Origin: a virus
Virus record (IMG/VR): IMGVR_UViG_3300025732_000294
Coordinates: 1-22,161 of that record
Reading direction: 5' to 3' (one strand)
DNA length: 22,161 nt
The position numbers and the translations under genes were made by a program. Below are positions 9,426-17,103 of the stretch, piece by piece. The notes beneath the pieces are model-generated. The model ran no database searches. It was not told where the DNA came from and saw only the letters and a list, made by a program, of their open reading frames with translations. Within the stretch, counting starts at the first letter, position 1; the number at the start of each line of letters is the position of its first letter.

Positions 9426-9830
9426 TTAAAACGTCCAGCACCGGAGAGGATTGTCCGAGGCAAAAATCAGACCGACCGGACCGACGAACGCCGCGACGTT
9501 ACCGAGGCATATTCCGAGAGCCGGACCCGTTGGCGTCATTCGCGCAAGGATGTCTCCGCGGCCTATGCGCTGCGGCTCGATCTCGCGGAGCTGCCCGTTG
9601 CCTCCGGCGATACCGATCACGCCGCCGGAAGGCTTGAGCATCCGCATCGCTCCAAGCGGCGTGTGATAGCGCCCGCGAAAAGGTGCCGCCAGATCGCAGC
9701 CGGAGGCTTTCAAGACCCAGTCGGCAGCAAAGGTCGCGCAGTCGTTTTTACCCCACGCAAACGGCATTGCTCGGCGTTCCTCGATGAACTCCGCGAGCAG
9801 CGTCGGCCAGTTGGAAGCGCGAGAGATCAT
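9426..9830 (-). CDS. Tail-associated NlpC/P60-like cysteine hydrolase (DUF6950-type)
   Basis: 134 residues starting MISRASNWPTLLAEFIEERR. The motif PFAWGKNDCATFAADWVL (about 23-40) contains the catalytic-type cysteine in the NlpC/P60 and DUF6950 pattern 'f.wG.nDC..f.ad'. GRGDILARM (about 88-96) is the second conserved strand, and LGICLGNVAAFVG follows where the family often has its His region. The expected histidine is not obvious here, so activity is uncertain. Lambda gpK has a related domain and acts at the tail tip, opening peptidoglycan at infection. ATG 9830 shares TGATG with the preceding stop. It is followed by the J-like gene, which supports the role. Confidence 0.78.
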   Translation of the reverse strand: MISRASNWPTLLAEFIEERRAMPFAWGKNDCATFAADWVLKASGCDLAAPFRGRYHTPLGAMRMLKPSGGVIGIAGGNGQLREIEPQRIGRGDILARMTPTGPALGICLGNVAAFVGPVGLIFASDNPLRCWTF

Positions 9831-10465
9831 CACTCGTAGGTCTGCTTCGTAGTCTCGCCGCCCTTGTCCCAATCCGTCGCCTGAGTCTGGTTCGGATTTC
9901 CCCAGTAAATCGCCTTTTCCTGTATATCGTTGACGAACTCAAGACCGAGATCGCCCGCGAAAAGGTTCTGTTGCTCCTCGTCGGTGTAGCGCACCTCACG
10001 CGGCCGCTTGAAATCCATCAGCCGCGACTCCGCGGTCATGATGATCTCGGCGGTCTGTCCATCGTCCGAGACCTGCATCACATCCATCCGGCCAGAGAAG
10101 ACCGTGACCGGAGACGAGATCAACGTGCCGGCGGTAGGCGACAGCGCGCCGAAGAGAATCGCGCACTCGCGGCCTTGGTAGTCTTCTGTAAGCGCCAGCG
10201 AGACGTTCGCGGTCGGAACGCCAGAGAGCTTCATCGTGATGCCACGCGCAGCGAGGTCCGTCGTCTCCTCTACCGGCGAGATCGTGCCGAGCGTACCGAG
10301 TCCGAGGTAAGTCGTCGAATTGTAGAACAGCGAGCCGTAGCCGGTCCAAAGATAGACCGGAGTCGAGAAGCCAAGGTTGGCGAGCAGGATCGGAGAAAGC
10401 TGCGCGGTGGTGACTTCCGTCACCATATCGGACGAGAGCGTGCGACCGGCGGTGGTAATGCTCAT
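9830..10465 (-). CDS. Minor tail protein of the DUF2163 type
   Basis: A 211-residue protein. The characteristic part is VFSGRMDVMQVSDDGQTAEI, then IMTAESRLMDFKRPREVRYT and DEEQQNLFAGDLGLEFVNDI. This matches the DUF2163 / phage BR0599 C-terminal pattern 'f.G.id...v.d......e.ESrl..l..p..r.yt...q...fp.D.g...v'. In other phages this gene lies between a distal tail or hub protein and the NlpC/P60 gene, exactly as here. It is probably a hub component analogous in position to lambda gpL, although the tip-specific cysteine cluster of gpL is not seen. ATG 10465 overlaps the upstream stop (ATGA). Confidence 0.8.
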   Translation of the reverse strand: MSITTAGRTLSSDMVTEVTTAQLSPILLANLGFSTPVYLWTGYGSLFYNSTTYLGLGTLGTISPVEETTDLAARGITMKLSGVPTANVSLALTEDYQGRECAILFGALSPTAGTLISSPVTVFSGRMDVMQVSDDGQTAEIIMTAESRLMDFKRPREVRYTDEEQQNLFAGDLGLEFVNDIQEKAIYWGNPNQTQATDWDKGGETTKQTYE

Positions 10466-11046: not shown

Positions 11047-12402
11047 TCAGGCGAAGGCGGCGCGGTAGGCTCCACCGCGACGAACCATGTCGGGAATCTC
11101 GGCCTTCAGTCGCTTGCGCTCGGTGTCGAGGATCGGAGCAAGCTCGGCGCGAGAGATGCCGGAGGCGATGTTGTAGGTGATGTTTATGCCGCCACCACCG
11201 AAGGATGCGCCGGCAAGTCGGTCGTTGCTTACGATGGAGCCAGATGTCCGCGGCACGAAAAGCTCAGGTCCGCGTTCTCCGACAATATACGGATTGCCGG
11301 AGCCGACGGGACCGCCTTCGGCTCGGAATAAGTTCTTGAAGAAGTTCCCTAGGCCGGTTCCGAGAGGAGCCGTGACTGCCTCGCGAAACGCCATCCGCAG
11401 TAGGTCTTGACCGAGACCGCGGAGAACCTCCGACAATTTGTTTCCGGCCAAGATCGCGTCCTCGAAGGATTGCGAGATGATCTCTCCGGCCTGCCGAGCG
11501 ATTCGAGCGTTGGTCGTTTCTAGACCGATGAGCTTCTGACGAAGCGGCACCATTTTCTCGTAGATTTCCGCGAGCCTTTCGCGCTGCGCGATTTCTTCCT
11601 CGGTTGCTCCTTCGGGGTCGAAAGTCTTCGGCAGGTTTTGGATCAACGCTTTTTCCTCTGCCGCAAGAGCTGCGACTTGCCCTGTCAATCTTTCGTAGAG
11701 TTGATCGGCTGTAAGCAAGTGCTGCACTTCGTCCTCGAATGTCTGACCAAGTCTTTCTCTACCTTTGATAAAGTCGTCGTTGACCTTGATCGCCGTCTTC
11801 TTCTGTTCGATCTGAAGCTGCACAATTTCCTTCTGCCGCATCAGCGTGTTCAATTCCTCGGAAAATGCAGGGTCGGAAGCCTCGTCGTTTGCCCTCTCGA
11901 TTTCGTCCGCGAGGCGGGCGAAGTGCTGCGCCGGAGTTTCTCCGATGGCGAGGAACTCTCGAGTCATCTGATCGAGTTCCTTATTCATCTCCTTGATCTT
12001 CGGGAGATCGCGCTCAACGCGAGTTTGCTCCGCGATTCCTGCGGACTGAACTTGCGAGACGCCGGTCAGCGCGTCCTTCAAATCGAGCACGCCATTGACC
12101 GCGCTGACAACGCCCATTTTGAGCGCCTGCATCATCGAGTCCAGCGCGCCCGTCGCTCGCGTTACTTTATCGAGTTCGTCTTTTGTCGCCCCAAACTTCT
12201 CGGACTCTTTCTCGACATCCCGCAGCGCGTTGTTGAATCCCATCAACGCACGCTTCGCGATGGTGAAAGTCAGGAAGCCACCGAGCGCCGCGCTTGCTTT
12301 TCCGACCGCAGATTGCAGTCCGGCAAGCGAGCGTTGGATGCCGGCGAAGACCTGCCTCGTGAGGTCGAGCGCCCTGATTGCGATGACAGCTTCAGCGGCC
12401 AT
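11047..12402 (-). CDS. H: Tail tape measure protein (short)
   Basis: 451 residues. The N-terminal part is helical and Ala-rich (MAAEAVIAIRALDLTRQVFA). A long coiled-coil region covers about residues 60-300. The C-terminal signature at 360-396 (RAEGGPVGSGNPYIVGERGP then ELFVPRTSGSIVSN) is typical of tape measure proteins. The end is Gly-rich and then charged. Its position directly after the chaperone frameshift pair confirms the identity. With the usual 1.5 Angstrom per residue the tail would be roughly 68 nm or less, short for a siphovirus (lambda gpH is 853 residues). There is no Shine-Dalgarno; ATG 12402 lies 11 nt inside the end of the upstream frameshift ORF, so translation is probably coupled. 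Confidence 0.88.
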   Translation of the reverse strand: MAAEAVIAIRALDLTRQVFAGIQRSLAGLQSAVGKASAALGGFLTFTIAKRALMGFNNALRDVEKESEKFGATKDELDKVTRATGALDSMMQALKMGVVSAVNGVLDLKDALTGVSQVQSAGIAEQTRVERDLPKIKEMNKELDQMTREFLAIGETPAQHFARLADEIERANDEASDPAFSEELNTLMRQKEIVQLQIEQKKTAIKVNDDFIKGRERLGQTFEDEVQHLLTADQLYERLTGQVAALAAEEKALIQNLPKTFDPEGATEEEIAQRERLAEIYEKMVPLRQKLIGLETTNARIARQAGEIISQSFEDAILAGNKLSEVLRGLGQDLLRMAFREAVTAPLGTGLGNFFKNLFRAEGGPVGSGNPYIVGERGPELFVPRTSGSIVSNDRLAGASFGGGGINITYNIASGISRAELAPILDTERKRLKAEIPDMVRRGGAYRAAFA

Positions 12403-12876
12403 TTCGGTTCTTGAGTTTGTTCTTGTGGTCTAGATACGCGAGCCAGCCATCGAGTTCCGTTTTCGGCATCTGCACGACCTCCGACGCAAACTTGCCGAGC
12501 AATTCCGCGATAGCATAAACGGCGAGGAAGTCGGCGGCTTCCCCGCCGTGCATCAGTTTTTTAGGTCTTCAACCTTCGGCGCATCATCCGCGAGGATCGC
12601 GTTTGCAACGCGAGCAATCACATTTGAGTCGGCCTTGTGGAGCAGCGTCGGACGGTGGTCGATGTTGAACAGCTTCTCGCCCTTGGCATCGGTCGCCTTG
12701 AGGATCAGGATGTCCACCAGCAGCTCCATATCGTTCTCGCGACTCTTCCGGTAGAGCTTGTTCTTTTCGGCAAGCGTGACCGGCGTCGCGTGAATCGTGA
12801 GTTTCCACTCGGGAACCTCGATCACCTTGGAGCCGAGGCTTGAGAAATGCTCGCGGACTAGATCAATGGCGTCCAA
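12392..12876 (-). CDS. Tail assembly chaperone GT fusion made by -1 frameshift (161 aa)
   Basis: Reading goes from TTG 12876 to the slippery AAAAAAC at 12562-12556, shifts back one base, and continues in the -1 frame to TGA 12394-12392. The product is 161 residues instead of 107. The added T part reads MHGGEAADFLAVYAIAELLG, then KFASEVVQMPKTELDGWLAY, and ends in basic residues. The extension is helical and compatible with binding a tape measure, as the T domain of lambda gpGT does. The ATG inside TGATG at 12553-12551 could also allow independent initiation of a 53-residue T protein by reinitiation. The frameshift is inferred from signals in the sequence. Confidence 0.8.
12532..12562 (-). promoter_or_regulatory. 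Programmed -1 ribosomal frameshift signal
   Basis: On the minus strand the last codons of G read CTA AAA AAC TGA, which contains the canonical heptamer A AAA AAC (12562-12556) in the correct phase, followed immediately by the stop. After a 7-nt spacer comes a perfect 6-bp stem, CGGCGG (12548-12543) pairing to CCGCCG (12537-12532), with loop GGAAG. Heptamer, spacer and stem match the geometry of known -1 signals. Hairpin extension and pseudoknot options were not computed. Confidence 0.88.
12553..12876 (-). CDS. G: Tail assembly chaperone G-like protein (107 aa)
   Basis: The unshifted product of the pair, located between the tail tube and tape measure genes as in lambda. It starts with a rare TTG at 12876. 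An in-frame TGA lies 6 nt upstream and a good TGAGGTGA precedes it, so no other start fits. The sequence runs from (Met)DAIDLVREHF through LTIHATPVTLAEKNKLYRKS to VARVANAILADDAPKVEDLKN and is mainly helical. G proteins coat the tape measure with the GT form during tail assembly and are absent from the finished virion. The last two sense codons (AAA AAC) are part of the slippery site. Confidence 0.83.
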   Translation of the reverse strand: MDAIDLVREHFSSLGSKVIEVPEWKLTIHATPVTLAEKNKLYRKSRENDMELLVDILILKATDAKGEKLFNIDHRPTLLHKADSNVIARVANAILADDAPKVEDLKN

Positions 12877-12884
12877 GTGTCACC

Positions 12885-13271
12885 TCAAACGGTTAAGGTT
12901 GAGAGCGTGCCGTTGCCTTCGATGGTGATCGAGCCTTCGACCATACCGTCGAACGCGGCGCTGATGTCGAACTTGGTCACGATGCCACCGCCCGAGTAGT
13001 AGGTGTCGGTGGAGTCTGCACCCTCGGGATAGAGGTTGACCGTGACCGAGGAGCCGACCGTCAGCGTGAGCTGGCCGGCATCTGTCTCGTCCCAGTAGAG
13101 GTCGCCCGAAACGGACCACGTCCGCATCGTAGCTTTGCGCGTGCGGAACGTGTCGCCGATGACAGAGTCCTCGACGGTGTCGGATGAATTGGCGAGAGCG
13201 TAGTTGCGAAGCTCTCCGATGGTGGTCGAGGAAATCTTGATGAGCCCCTCGCGGCCGAGATGGTTTGCCAT
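12885..13271 (-). CDS. V: Major tail tube protein
   Basis: 128 residues, beginning MANHLGREGLIKISSTTIGE. It includes NYALANSSDTVEDSVIGDTF (the loop and strand region common in tail tube proteins) and a beta-rich body (WSVSGDLYWDETDAGQLTLT, FDISAAFDGMVEGSITIEGN). Length and strand pattern fit the siphovirus tail tube fold. The position between a U-like terminator and the chaperone pair matches lambda V. It would assemble as stacked hexamer rings around the tape measure. ATG 13271 follows the upstream stop by 1 nt. Confidence 0.82.
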   Translation of the reverse strand: MANHLGREGLIKISSTTIGELRNYALANSSDTVEDSVIGDTFRTRKATMRTWSVSGDLYWDETDAGQLTLTVGSSVTVNLYPEGADSTDTYYSGGGIVTKFDISAAFDGMVEGSITIEGNGTLSTLTV

Positions 13272-13705: not shown

Positions 13706-14479
13706 TCAATAGCTGCCGCCGGCAAGTTTCTTGAAGCCGAGGTTGACCGCCTTACCTTGAATGACTCGCTCGAGCTTCTTCTGCGCGACGCGGAGCCGGA
13801 AGCGGATCGTCGTGTCGATCTTCTTCTGCGCGTCCGCGATCTTCATATTGCCATTGCGAGCAACGAAGAACGGATTGCGAGCGTAACTGTATTCCAAGTC
13901 CGACCTCGATCCGGCGTAGCTTCGGCTGGCGAACTTCTTCGTCTTCACGCCAAGCGCCTGCGCGGCCTTGTTCCAGCCGCTCAACATAAAGCCAACGCGC
14001 TGGTTCACGACCTTGTTGTACCGCCGCATATCGACGCGGAACGCGACATTGCGAGCGACGCCCTTGACGCGACCGGCAACGCGACGGGATTGATGATGCT
14101 GCGCGATCTCGTCCTGATTCGCCAGCACGCCGAAGTTCTTGAACAGATTCAGATTCGGATTTTGTAGCAGAAGCCGGAGCTTCTCCGCGTTGCGTCGGCG
14201 AACGTACTTGGCGATGGACTTGTAGAAGCCGCCCTCGGTCGCACGCGCCTCGAATGACTGATAGTCCAGCGGCACCGCGACCTTGTTCAGATCGTTTGCA
14301 ATCGTTCGGTCGCCAGCTTGCTTGCTCGGAGGCGGCGTCGTGCGGACCACGCTTTGCACGACGTACTTTGCCTCCTCCTTGATGAATTGCCCGAGGTCTT
14401 CGCCGGTCCGCTTGGACAACTCGTGAAGCGCATATTGCAGCTTTCGAGCGTCCATATTGATGTAGATCGGCAGGCTCAT
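13706..14479 (-). CDS. Tail completion / minor tail protein, Z or HK97 gp10-like position
   Basis: 257 residues beginning MSLPIYINMDARKLQYALHE. The N-terminal part (LSKRTGEDLGQFIKEEAKYV then VQSVVRTTPPP) has the shape of the gp10/Z group: helix, helix, then Thr/Pro where others have 'TP..TG.L'. The rest is long, very basic and Arg/Lys-rich (VAGRVKGVARNVAFRVDMRR). ATG 14479 overlaps the connector stop (ATGA). These proteins act at the head-tail junction or in tail completion. The identity comes mainly from position and the N-terminal pattern. It is longer than lambda gpZ (192 residues). Confidence 0.62.
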   Translation of the reverse strand: MSLPIYINMDARKLQYALHELSKRTGEDLGQFIKEEAKYVVQSVVRTTPPPSKQAGDRTIANDLNKVAVPLDYQSFEARATEGGFYKSIAKYVRRRNAEKLRLLLQNPNLNLFKNFGVLANQDEIAQHHQSRRVAGRVKGVARNVAFRVDMRRYNKVVNQRVGFMLSGWNKAAQALGVKTKKFASRSYAGSRSDLEYSYARNPFFVARNGNMKIADAQKKIDTTIRFRLRVAQKKLERVIQGKAVNLGFKKLAGGSY

Positions 14480-14793
14480 ATCACCTTGCAAACATCCATC
14501 TCGCACCCACTCGCCTCGGCGTCGAACCGCAACTGCTCGACGAAATAAGTCACGCCAGACCGCACGAGGGTTTGCGAGATCGAAGGACGCGATGCCATCT
14601 GCGAGGTCAGGAAAAAGATCGTGTATTTTATCTCCTCGCGGCGCTGATCCTCGAAGGCGCTGAAGTCATTGCGCGAGATCGCCCAGATGCCGGTCACGGT
14701 CGAGCCGCCCATCGAGAACGTGACGCCGGCCTGCTCCTGTATGCCGGTGAAGTCGCTCTCGAGCTGAACTGGGTCGAAGTCGCGGACTGCCAT
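14476..14793 (-). CDS. Head-tail joining / stopper protein, FII-like position
   Basis: 105 residues, beginning MAVRDFDPVQLESDFTGIQE. Predicted strands (VTFSMGGSTVTGIWAI and EIKYTIFFLTSQMAS) and the end (YFVEQLRFDAEASGCEMDVC) fit a small beta-barrel connector such as lambda FII or HK97-like stoppers. It follows the glycosyltransferase genes after a 22-nt gap without a Shine-Dalgarno or clear promoter. It precedes the Z-U-V order, which is the main support. A longer open frame reaches to 15207, but the added part is a shadow of the glycosyltransferase gene. Confidence 0.65.
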   Translation of the reverse strand: MAVRDFDPVQLESDFTGIQEQAGVTFSMGGSTVTGIWAISRNDFSAFEDQRREEIKYTIFFLTSQMASRPSISQTLVRSGVTYFVEQLRFDAEASGCEMDVCKVI

Positions 14794-14815
14794 ACAACTT
14801 GTCCAAATGTAAGAT

Positions 14816-15406
14816 TTACGGCGGCGGCGCTTCTGAGACGCGCTCATCGTAGCGGTAAGCGTGCAGGACGCGGTCGATGTGGTACTCGCCCTTCGCGTCA
14901 ATGACGAGGTGCTTCGCCCACGCCCAGTCCTCGCCGTAGTTTGTCGCCGGAAAGCGGACGCGCCGCGCCATATCGCCGCGCCACGCGCAGACGTGCCACG
15001 CGGACCGCTTGAAGGAAGGCTGCGCGAAAGGTTCGTTGCGATGCCGCAGCGAGAAGGAGCAGATGGCCTCGGCTCCATTGACGCTCGCCCGCTGGTCAAA
15101 GGTAATGACTGAAACATCCGCGGAGGACCGCTCGGCCGCACCGACAAGCGCCGCGATGTACTCGTCGGCCACGTCGTCGTCATCATCGACAAAGGCAATG
15201 AACTCACCGCGAGACATTTGCACGAGCGCGTCGCGCTTCTCTCCGATGGTCCGCTGTCGATTGTCTAGAAATACGAGGAGCTCGACATCTCCGTCGCGCT
15301 GCATCGCATCAACCTGCGCCTGCAACTTCTGCCAGAGCGGCCACAGGTGCGAGTGGTACCGACGCGGCGTCGCCGGAATCAGTACCGATAGGATCGGAGC
15401 GCTCAC
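14816..15406 (-). CDS. Family 2-type glycosyltransferase
   Basis: A 196-residue GT-A fold enzyme. The N-terminal strand is ILSVLIPATPRR, the nucleotide-binding part is VELLVFLDNRQRTIGEKRDA, and the metal-binding run is FIAFVDDDDDVADEYI with Asp74-78. A later segment, NYGEDWAWAKHLV (about 157-169), supplies the usual 'ED..l' catalytic acid region. Such enzymes transfer a sugar from a nucleotide sugar. No membrane segment is present. GTG 15406 overlaps the upstream glycosyltransferase stop (GTGA), so both are made together. The substrate is unknown. The enzyme might decorate a virion protein or alter a host surface glycan. Confidence 0.85.
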   Translation of the reverse strand: MSAPILSVLIPATPRRYHSHLWPLWQKLQAQVDAMQRDGDVELLVFLDNRQRTIGEKRDALVQMSRGEFIAFVDDDDDVADEYIAALVGAAERSSADVSVITFDQRASVNGAEAICSFSLRHRNEPFAQPSFKRSAWHVCAWRGDMARRVRFPATNYGEDWAWAKHLVIDAKGEYHIDRVLHAYRYDERVSEAPPP

Positions 15407-17103
15407 CTTGGATTCCTTTCGCGGTAGAGCTTCTCGCCGGCGGCATATCGCTCCTGCGAGTTGTTGTGCTTGTAGGTCGCGTCCATCGTTCCTTTGCCGA
15501 AGGCGGGATGCTGGTGCTCGAAAGTGATCGCCTTCCGCGCATCGACGACGACGCCGTCCTTGAAGGCGCGGTGACTGAACTCGTTATCGGAAAACACCGA
15601 CTCGTAGCCGGCGTGGAAGACCTCGCCGCCCTGCTGCTCGTAGCGCGCACGCGAGAGGATCGCCATGCAGAGGAGGTCGTCGTGCCGGTGTCCATCCGAG
15701 ACGGCGATCACGAGCTGCTCCTTCTGGAGATCGAGTCCGTTGACGGTCTCCAGTAGCTTGCGATCCCAGCCGACCGGAGGCACCCAGTCGTCGGAGACCT
15801 GCACGAGAAGATCGCCACGGGAGACTGCCGCCGCTGCGTTCCACGCCGCAACGCAAGACTGGCGCGGGCTAATTACCGAGACGAACTGCTTCGCCATCTC
15901 GACCGATGTCGCGTCGTCCGCATCGACTGCGAAGATATGCTCGACGCGGCTCGGATCGTCCGCGGTCGAGAGCCAAAGCTCGCGAGCGTTGACCGCTTTC
16001 GAGGTCCGTCCGCGGGTCGCGTGCAGGAGCGAAATCTTCGGAGTCGCTCCGAGATGGAACTGCCATTGGAGAACGTCAGCCATCGCCTTGTTTCCGGCGG
16101 CACGGTACGCTCTCGCTCCGACATCGTAGCCAGCCCAGCCGTACCACTTTGCCTCGTGCGTCCACGGGCGCTTGTCTTCGAGCGGCTCCCGCAGAGCCAG
16201 CATCTTCTCAGCCCACACCTCGGCCTTGCTGTAGTCGCGCTTCTCGAAGTGTAGCAGCACCAAAGCGGCGAGCGCCTCGCGGCACCACGGATAGATGCCG
16301 TGCGCTTCCATCAGGTAGAGGTTCGCCTCGCGGCTCGATCCGCAAAGGCGAGCGCAGTTGAGCAGCGCCTCATAGCGAAAAGCCGGTTGTAGATTCGGAA
16401 ACGCCAGCGCAATCTTGCCGAACTCCAGCGCAGCGTCGCGGTTAGCCGAGCAGTAATGTTCTTGATGTATGTAGAAATACTGCGTCGGCGTCTCGCGCAC
16501 CGAGTGCGCCAAGATGCGAAGATTGCGGCGGCGATTCTCGCGGCGAACCTCAACCGGAGCGTGCAGCCAGATCGGTGCGTCCCAGTCCTCGTGCCGATCT
16601 CCGTCAAGGATAAGAAGATTCTCGTGAACGTCATGGTGCCAACGGCGGTTTTGCTGGAAGGCCGAGCGACGGATTGCGCGCTCGCGGAAGAGCTTTTTGT
16701 TGCTGCCGCGGACATCGTAGAGGCAGCGGATCATAGTGAGGTCGGGCTTCGCCGCTTCGAGTCGGTCGCGGAATCCTTCGGCGTCACCGACGAACTTGTC
16801 ATCGCAGTCTGACCAGATCAGCCAGTCGCCGGTCCCGAGAGCGAAAGCCTCGTTGCGTGCATCGCAGAAGGAATCGACGTGATCCCACTTCTCGGTGCCG
16901 ATACCGTTGAGATGATCCGCGAATACGAAGTCCTTGCCGTTTTTGCGGCACCATTCGCGAGCGAGGTCAACGGTCTCGTCCGGCTGCTTCGCTCCGATGG
17001 CTCGCACGAGGCAAAGCTCGTCGAAGACCGGATCGAACGAGGTCAGCATCGTCTCGATGTGCTGGCGCTCGTTGCCGCAGATGACGCAAAGGGATACGCG
17101 CAT
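15403..17103 (-). CDS. Two-domain glycosyltransferase with helical repeat linker
   Basis: 566 residues. The first GT-A domain (about 1-205) opens RVSLCVICGNERQHIETMLT and has the metal motif WLIWSDCDDKF near 94-104, followed by a HHDVHE region. Residues about 210-345 look like TPR-type helical repeats (ALEFGKIALAFPN, LVLLHFEKRDYSKAEVWAEK). A second GT-A-like domain begins at about 357 (ISLLHATRGRTSKAVNARE), with AVDADD at 392-397, QVSDDW at 435-440 and later EVFHAGYESVFSDNEFSHRA. Its order of parts resembles bifunctional transferases in which TPRs bind protein substrates. ATG 17103 follows the terminator closely, with AGAGAG upstream. The acceptor is unknown. Confidence 0.83.
   Translation of the reverse strand: MRVSLCVICGNERQHIETMLTSFDPVFDELCLVRAIGAKQPDETVDLAREWCRKNGKDFVFADHLNGIGTEKWDHVDSFCDARNEAFALGTGDWLIWSDCDDKFVGDAEGFRDRLEAAKPDLTMIRCLYDVRGSNKKLFRERAIRRSAFQQNRRWHHDVHENLLILDGDRHEDWDAPIWLHAPVEVRRENRRRNLRILAHSVRETPTQYFYIHQEHYCSANRDAALEFGKIALAFPNLQPAFRYEALLNCARLCGSSREANLYLMEAHGIYPWCREALAALVLLHFEKRDYSKAEVWAEKMLALREPLEDKRPWTHEAKWYGWAGYDVGARAYRAAGNKAMADVLQWQFHLGATPKISLLHATRGRTSKAVNARELWLSTADDPSRVEHIFAVDADDATSVEMAKQFVSVISPRQSCVAAWNAAAAVSRGDLLVQVSDDWVPPVGWDRKLLETVNGLDLQKEQLVIAVSDGHRHDDLLCMAILSRARYEQQGGEVFHAGYESVFSDNEFSHRAFKDGVVVDARKAITFEHQHPAFGKGTMDATYKHNNSQERYAAGEKLYRERNPR

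Follow-up and report, generated by a model that had tools for sequence, protein, structure and literature searches.

Sequence comparison supports a programmed -1 frameshift at a stop-abutting slippery heptamer in the tail assembly chaperone gene of a siphophage lineage

From a single message, a programmed -1 ribosomal frameshift very probably produces the tail assembly chaperone G as well as a longer protein in which G and T are fused. This applies to the viral DNA analyzed here (the window), which comprises 22,161 bp of a virus record and has a G+C content of 60%. The comparative evidence for this shift is very strong. A phased and conserved slippery heptamer, the coding character of the T frame, covariation in a downstream stem and putative pseudoknot, the gene order and a structural match to 2ob9 together lead to this reading. 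The original prediction, made from the letters of the window, had proposed a G/GT-type -1 shift for a pair of tail chaperones and a stop codon that abuts the heptamer, and this is supported by the conservation, the coding of T and the family matches described below. The features are listed in Table 1.

Table 1. Coordinates of the tail genes, the proposed frameshift signal and the predicted RNA structure in the window
Feature	Position	Strand	Remarks
Tail terminator	13725-13273	minus	
Major tail protein gene, upstream of G	12885..13271	minus	phrog_1407, E 3.9e-15; Pfam Phage_tail_2 above cut-off
Gene G, tail assembly chaperone	12553..12876	minus	107 aa, TTG start, C-terminus ...DLKN then TGA
Slippery heptamer A AAA AAC	12556..12562	minus	in phase (CTA AAA AAC), last codons of G
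Zero-frame stop TGA	12553..12555	minus	directly 3' of the heptamer
T extension, -1 frame	12392..12558	minus	from the predicted slippage point (...K-K-L-M-H-G-G...) to TGA 12394-12392
Stem 1, 5' arm ACGGCGGGGAAG	12538..12549	minus	6 nt after the heptamer
Stem 1, 3' arm CTTCCTCGCCGT	12519..12530	minus	covariation
Candidate pseudoknot stem 2, 5' strand GCCGA	12531..12535	minus	in the loop of stem 1
Candidate pseudoknot stem 2, 3' strand TCGGC	12494..12498	minus	20 nt after stem 1
Tape measure gene	11047..12402	minus	ATG at 12402; start overlaps the end of T by 11 nt
Distal tail protein	11043-10462	minus	

The order of the genes on the minus strand is tail terminator, major tail protein, a 107-aa ORF, its -1 extension, tape measure and distal tail protein, which places G after the major tail protein gene and before the tape measure gene, as in G/GT pairs of the lambda type. 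At the position of the TTG start of G its relatives have ATG. The first ORF is a tail assembly chaperone both by sequence, as it matches phrog_344 ('tail assembly chaperone', E 1e-7), and by fold. The AlphaFold model of G (mean pLDDT 77.6) has as its best PDB match 2ob9, the tail assembly chaperone of HK97 (prob 1.00, TM 0.59, E 1.2e-3); a search of the G profile against the sequences of solved structures gave chance-level hits only. The predicted GT fusion of 161 aa matches phrog_16513 over positions 8-157 of 160 with 47 bits, compared to 22.8 and 17.2 bits for the separate pieces. Judged by this profile, the fused protein is one tail-chaperone family from end to end.

Farther upstream on the same strand, a 566-aa two-part gene that resembles glycosyltransferases (15403-17103; phrog_13126 plus phrog_14945, Pfam Glycos_transf_2) separates the major head protein from the tail genes, which is an uncommon position for it within a structural module. 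Two overlapping ORFs with GTG starts (13706-15207, minus strand), for which no PHROG family match was found, lie between it and the tail terminator.

At the end of G the minus strand reads ...GAA GAC CTA AAA AAC TGA TGC ACG GCG..., and the phased heptamer with TGA immediately behind it is seen exactly where it had been predicted. An in-phase A AAA AAC occurs once among the 4,950 sites of the 18 ORFs of the window, precisely at the end of the chaperone gene, and its expectation from codon frequencies is 2.4e-5 per in-phase site. Lysine is encoded by AAG in 157 of the 201 cases in the window. A second phased slippery heptamer, GGGAAAT, precedes the stop of a tail protein gene (9830-10465, minus strand; phrog_2048) by 63 nt and is probably due to chance.

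A scan of viral contigs yielded 80 close relatives, every one of which has AAAAAAC directly before a stop, and the addition of three more scans extended the set to 191 distinct sequences in three groups, resembling the window, the pelagiphage HTVC026P and the phage DSL-LC06, respectively. The heptamer abuts the stop in all 94 window-like relatives (four of them on contigs too short for the whole T frame), in all 63 relatives of HTVC026P and in 32 of the 34 relatives of DSL-LC06, the other two having a distance of 3 nt. Within the window-like group the heptamer is AAAAAAC in 93 of 94 sequences; GGGAAAC in the remaining one (L161) is the sole replaced heptamer that was found and is likewise slippery. 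The stop codon in this group is TGA (73), TAG (16) or TAA (5), and TAA is used by nearly all members of the other two groups. The heptamer and stop are the feature common to all groups, and the same pattern recurs in groups whose G proteins have identities of 28-50%. A search of a phage collection at the DNA level gave no match, the chaperones of phi3LM21 and RcRhea retrieved nothing in a prophage search of genome contigs, and the sole match of the RcRhea query among the viral contigs was a 100% identical copy.

The wobble bases of the heptamer are kept against codon bias, which we count as evidence for a programmed -1 frameshift. In the window-like G genes 10.7% of the codons end in A elsewhere, versus 93 of 94 before the AAA codon, and lysine is encoded by AAA in 23% of the cases elsewhere versus 93 of 93 at the heptamer; in the AT-rich HTVC026P group asparagine is encoded by AAC in 16% of the cases elsewhere versus 63 of 63 at the heptamer, although these figures are not formal probabilities, since related sequences are not independent. 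In the last group a change to AAT would be silent in both frames (AAC and AAT both encode Asn, CTA and TTA both Leu). In its members L171-L250 the last slippery base is C in 63 of 63, though AAT makes up 84% of the Asn codons. At the level of sequence comparison, this conservation of the wobble bases shows the signal to be under purifying selection.

The position of the stop raises the question of its role. The distance between heptamer and stop was computed as 0 nt in the window, 3 nt in phi3LM21, 15 nt in lambda, 18 nt in P2 and in D3, 24 nt in Shrooms and 45 nt in S-2L, and mean distances of 26 nt (SEA-PHAGES) and 36 nt (the phages of Xu et al.) were reported in the PRFect paper (PMC10885494). 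Considering the abutment in this lineage versus the 15-45 nt found elsewhere, it is a lineage-wide habit rather than a property of the G/GT kind as a whole. We give about an even chance to the simplest explanation, namely that the position of the stop has no role and is merely the earliest possible end of G, with heptamer and RNA structure alone being of importance. In line with this, the release-factor type is not conserved, as TGA, TAG and TAA all occur, and the stop lies 3 nt later in phi3LM21 and in two of the DSL-LC06 relatives (L254/L255). Against it, gaps of at least 3 nt are rare within the lineage though the first T residues vary freely, lambda, P2, D3, S-2L and Shrooms carry larger gaps, and the codon after the slippery site alters frameshifting in published tests (PMC4373837; PMC5009743). 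When a stop was introduced at this place into an HIV element in reporters, frameshifting fell and became sensitive to release factor, in both bacterial and mammalian cells (PMC4373837). These published effects make it plausible that the shift is linked to the speed of termination, in which case the stop would most likely act as a throttle. The abutting stop may hold the rate down by giving the ribosome a chance to terminate once the last slippery codon has reached the P site. A stronger version, which we propose only tentatively and consider the less probable of the two readings of the stop, is that the stop has been fixed behind the heptamer as a working part throughout this siphophage lineage, the hosts of which are mostly alphaproteobacterial where known, and that the release factor competes with slippage while the last slippery codon occupies the P site. 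That the three stop codons replace one another freely speaks against the involvement of any single release factor. If the stop is indeed a working part, the kinetics of termination would help to set the G:GT ratio, together with a pseudoknot like that of coronaviruses.

The T frame itself has the hallmarks of a coding sequence. As had been stated, the -1 frame comprises 53 codons, if the ATG at 12553 is taken as the first, and ends 11 nt past the tape measure ATG. In a sample of 40 sequences its pN/pS was 0.28, versus 1.34 and 1.70 in the other two frames, and among the 80 distinct T frames the variation is concentrated at the third positions of the -1 frame. By these measures the -1 ORF is under purifying selection. 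The TGATG at the junction, which is indeed present in the window, had also suggested that ribosomes terminating on G could reinitiate at its ATG and make T as a separate protein of 53 residues. The ATG is kept in only 3 of 94 relatives, the rest having ATT, ATC, GCC, GCA and the like, and 59 of the 80 distinct T frames contain no ATG, GTG or TTG within their first 20 codons. Reinitiation thus cannot be the general route to T, although it may add some T in the sub-lineage of the window itself. Since it also leaves the conserved silent bases of the heptamer and the fused family profile unexplained, we regard it as highly improbable as the source of T. T would instead be translated as an extension that has no start of its own, as in lambda. 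Equally remote is transcriptional slippage on the A run, by which some mRNAs would gain one A and normal translation would then enter the T frame: the window has A6 and the HTVC026P group A9, but A6 is short for polymerase slippage, the GGGAAAC versions (L161, RcRhea, R4C) lack an A run and yet keep phase and position, and a phased heptamer with a spaced RNA structure is the hallmark of slippage by the ribosome.

The RNA downstream of the stop is predicted to fold into a stable structure. Stem 1 consists of 11-12 bp (ACGGCGGGGAAG / CTTCCTCGCCGT) with a loop of 7 nt and a spacer of 6 nt, and is the minimum free energy structure (-21.2 kcal/mol, z -4.6, for 36 nt). Over 55 distinct sequences 94.1% of the cells are paired and four pairs have changed on both sides; its covariation beats that of all shuffles (0 of 500 as high) and of all slid versions. 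The original prediction had drawn a 6-bp stem between CGGCGG (12548-12543) and CCGCCG (12537-12532). Both motifs are present as claimed, but CGGCGG pairs better with CTTCCTCGCCG (12530-12520), within the 11-12 bp stem, which excludes the shorter one. The 6-bp stem was paired in 83% of the cells and had no doubly changed pairs against four in the 12-bp stem, and was discarded in favor of the latter. Folding, which had been proposed as a check for a stem or a pseudoknot, thus returned the 12-bp stem as the minimum free energy structure and not the 6-bp one. Likewise, while a lack of conservation of heptamer and stem in related phages was to count against the shift, the heptamer is conserved whereas the 6-bp stem is not the conserved structure.

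The loop of stem 1 could pair further with the downstream site listed in Table 1. For this stem 2, in a fixed register, 82.6% of the cells are paired, and its variable pair (positions 28/69) occurs as G-C, U-A, G-U and U-G, with G28-C69, U28-A69 and U28-G69 covarying. In terms of codons, the third and silent base of a glycine codon (GGC, GGA, GGG) tracks the first base of an Ala or Ser codon (GCC, TCC) in the loop. When any register is allowed, a helix score of at least 5 is reached in 50 of 54 sequences, versus about 16 of 54 when synonymous codons were resampled with the relatedness preserved (none of 500 resamplings as high), on the same alignment on which stem 2 was first noticed; the register differs in about 30% of the sequences. 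Covariation is shown for stem 1 and less completely for stem 2, and the 12-bp stem probably sits in an H-type pseudoknot formed by GCCGA and TCGGC. The 50 nt after the stop fold with a mean of -24.4 kcal/mol, versus -18.3 (sd 0.45) under synonymous resampling.

The downstream stimulator differs from group to group. The DSL-LC06 group has a different one, a 9-bp stem that closes a 62-nt loop and is 98.6% paired with four doubly changed pairs; under the synonymous null this was reached in 0.3% of the resamplings for the 3' arm and in none for the 5' arm. Its arms GGACACTGA/TCAGTGTCC and variants thereof follow the heptamer and stop in L084 (1309-1418) and L252-L291. RcRhea and R4C have GC-rich hairpins soon after the stop. 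In the HTVC026P group no comparably strong conserved stem was found, and folding was slightly above the synonymous null. A stimulator common to all groups was looked for and none was found. As for a Shine-Dalgarno-like stimulator upstream, AAGG is present 10 nt upstream in some relatives only and is not conserved.

On the basis of these observations the following course of events can be envisaged. Ribosomes on CTA AAA AAC would meet the downstream 12-bp stem, probably knotted via its loop and the site 20 nt on. A minority would shift backwards by one base on A AAA AAC, continue with CTG ATG CAC... and append the T domain, while the remaining ribosomes would terminate at the abutting stop, so that G is released. 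By homology, G would coat the tape measure protein and GT would recruit the tail tube protein; we infer the slippage itself, its rate and these roles in the present phage. In lambda the G-T shift yields about 30 G to 1 GT, and G binds the tape measure whereas T binds the tail tube subunit (PMC5009743). In E. coli, slippage on A_AAA_AAC is much weaker than on A_AAA_AAG, and in general AAC is a less favored second codon (PMC5009743, PMC4066793). Therefore, the rate could be low here.

Several sequenced phages turn out to carry a T part that was overlooked in their annotation. T is unannotated in HTVC026P, 111P, 112P, 202P, DSL-LC06, CRP-406 and R4C, and is given as a separate small ORF (p41) in phi3LM21; the RcRhea record does annotate a joined (shifted) chaperone at GGGAAAC-TGA. 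The minus-strand 'hypothetical proteins' HTVC111P_gp45 (L082 1406-1558) and HTVC112P_gp41 (L086 1406-1552) occupy the strand opposite to the T frame and seem to be annotation errors. Phage tails are built with a chaperone ratio that is set by G/GT frameshifting, and the sequences collected here constitute a large natural set of sites with stop and heptamer in contact, a freely varying stop codon, a heptamer that E. coli shifts poorly and a stimulator that differs between groups. Such a set provides material to test slippage with a stop already in the A site and tuning by release factors.

A comparison with known systems shows what is shared and what is particular. Lambda G/GT, P2 E/E+E' and D3 have, like the window, a chaperone gene between the tail tube and tape measure genes, a phased X_XXY_YYZ close to where G ends, and a T that is read in the -1 frame. 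They differ in their heptamer, which is GGGAAAG or TTTTTTG instead of AAAAAAC with a downstream stem or pseudoknot. A scan of HK97 for a phased X_XXY_YYZ found none, and this phage was not used as a yardstick. The Rhodobacter phages RcRhea, RcCronus and RcSaxon and the Dinoroseobacter phage R4C have a homologous G with the heptamer directly before TGA, and their T lies in the -1 frame (as read here in RcRhea and R4C), but the heptamer is GGGAAAC, the downstream hairpin is another one and G is distant (26% identity for RcRhea). The Pelagibacter phages HTVC026P, 111P, 112P and 202P, DSL-LC06 and the Roseobacter phage CRP-406 have a homologous G in which AAAAAAC or AAAAAAG abuts the stop, and their T likewise follows in the -1 frame; here the shift is unannotated in the records and the downstream structure is different. 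No description of a stop-adjacent layout in phages was found in the open papers searched, and a prior mention elsewhere is possible. A stop immediately 3' of the heptamer is known from Rous sarcoma virus and barley yellow dwarf virus (PMC4373837), which are eukaryotic RNA viruses with unrelated genes and ribosomes. The haloarchaeal viruses HCTV-1, -2 and -5 have a g-t frameshift, for which HCTV-1 and HCTV-2 use the heptamers found here, G_GGA_AAC and A_AAA_AAC (PMC5009743), but their hosts are archaea. Pseudoknots of the IBV class, which require at least 11 bp in stem 1, combine this long stem with a short loop 1 and a long loop 3 (PMC7618472, PMC5009743). The predicted geometry in the window is similar (stem 1 of 12 bp, loop 1 of 2, stem 2 of 5 and loop 3 of 20), with the difference that it concerns a bacterial phage and a candidate pseudoknot proposed from covariation. 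As far as the sequences tell, the chaperone pair of the window belongs to the G/GT kind and has a distinctive and conserved layout in which the stop abuts the heptamer.
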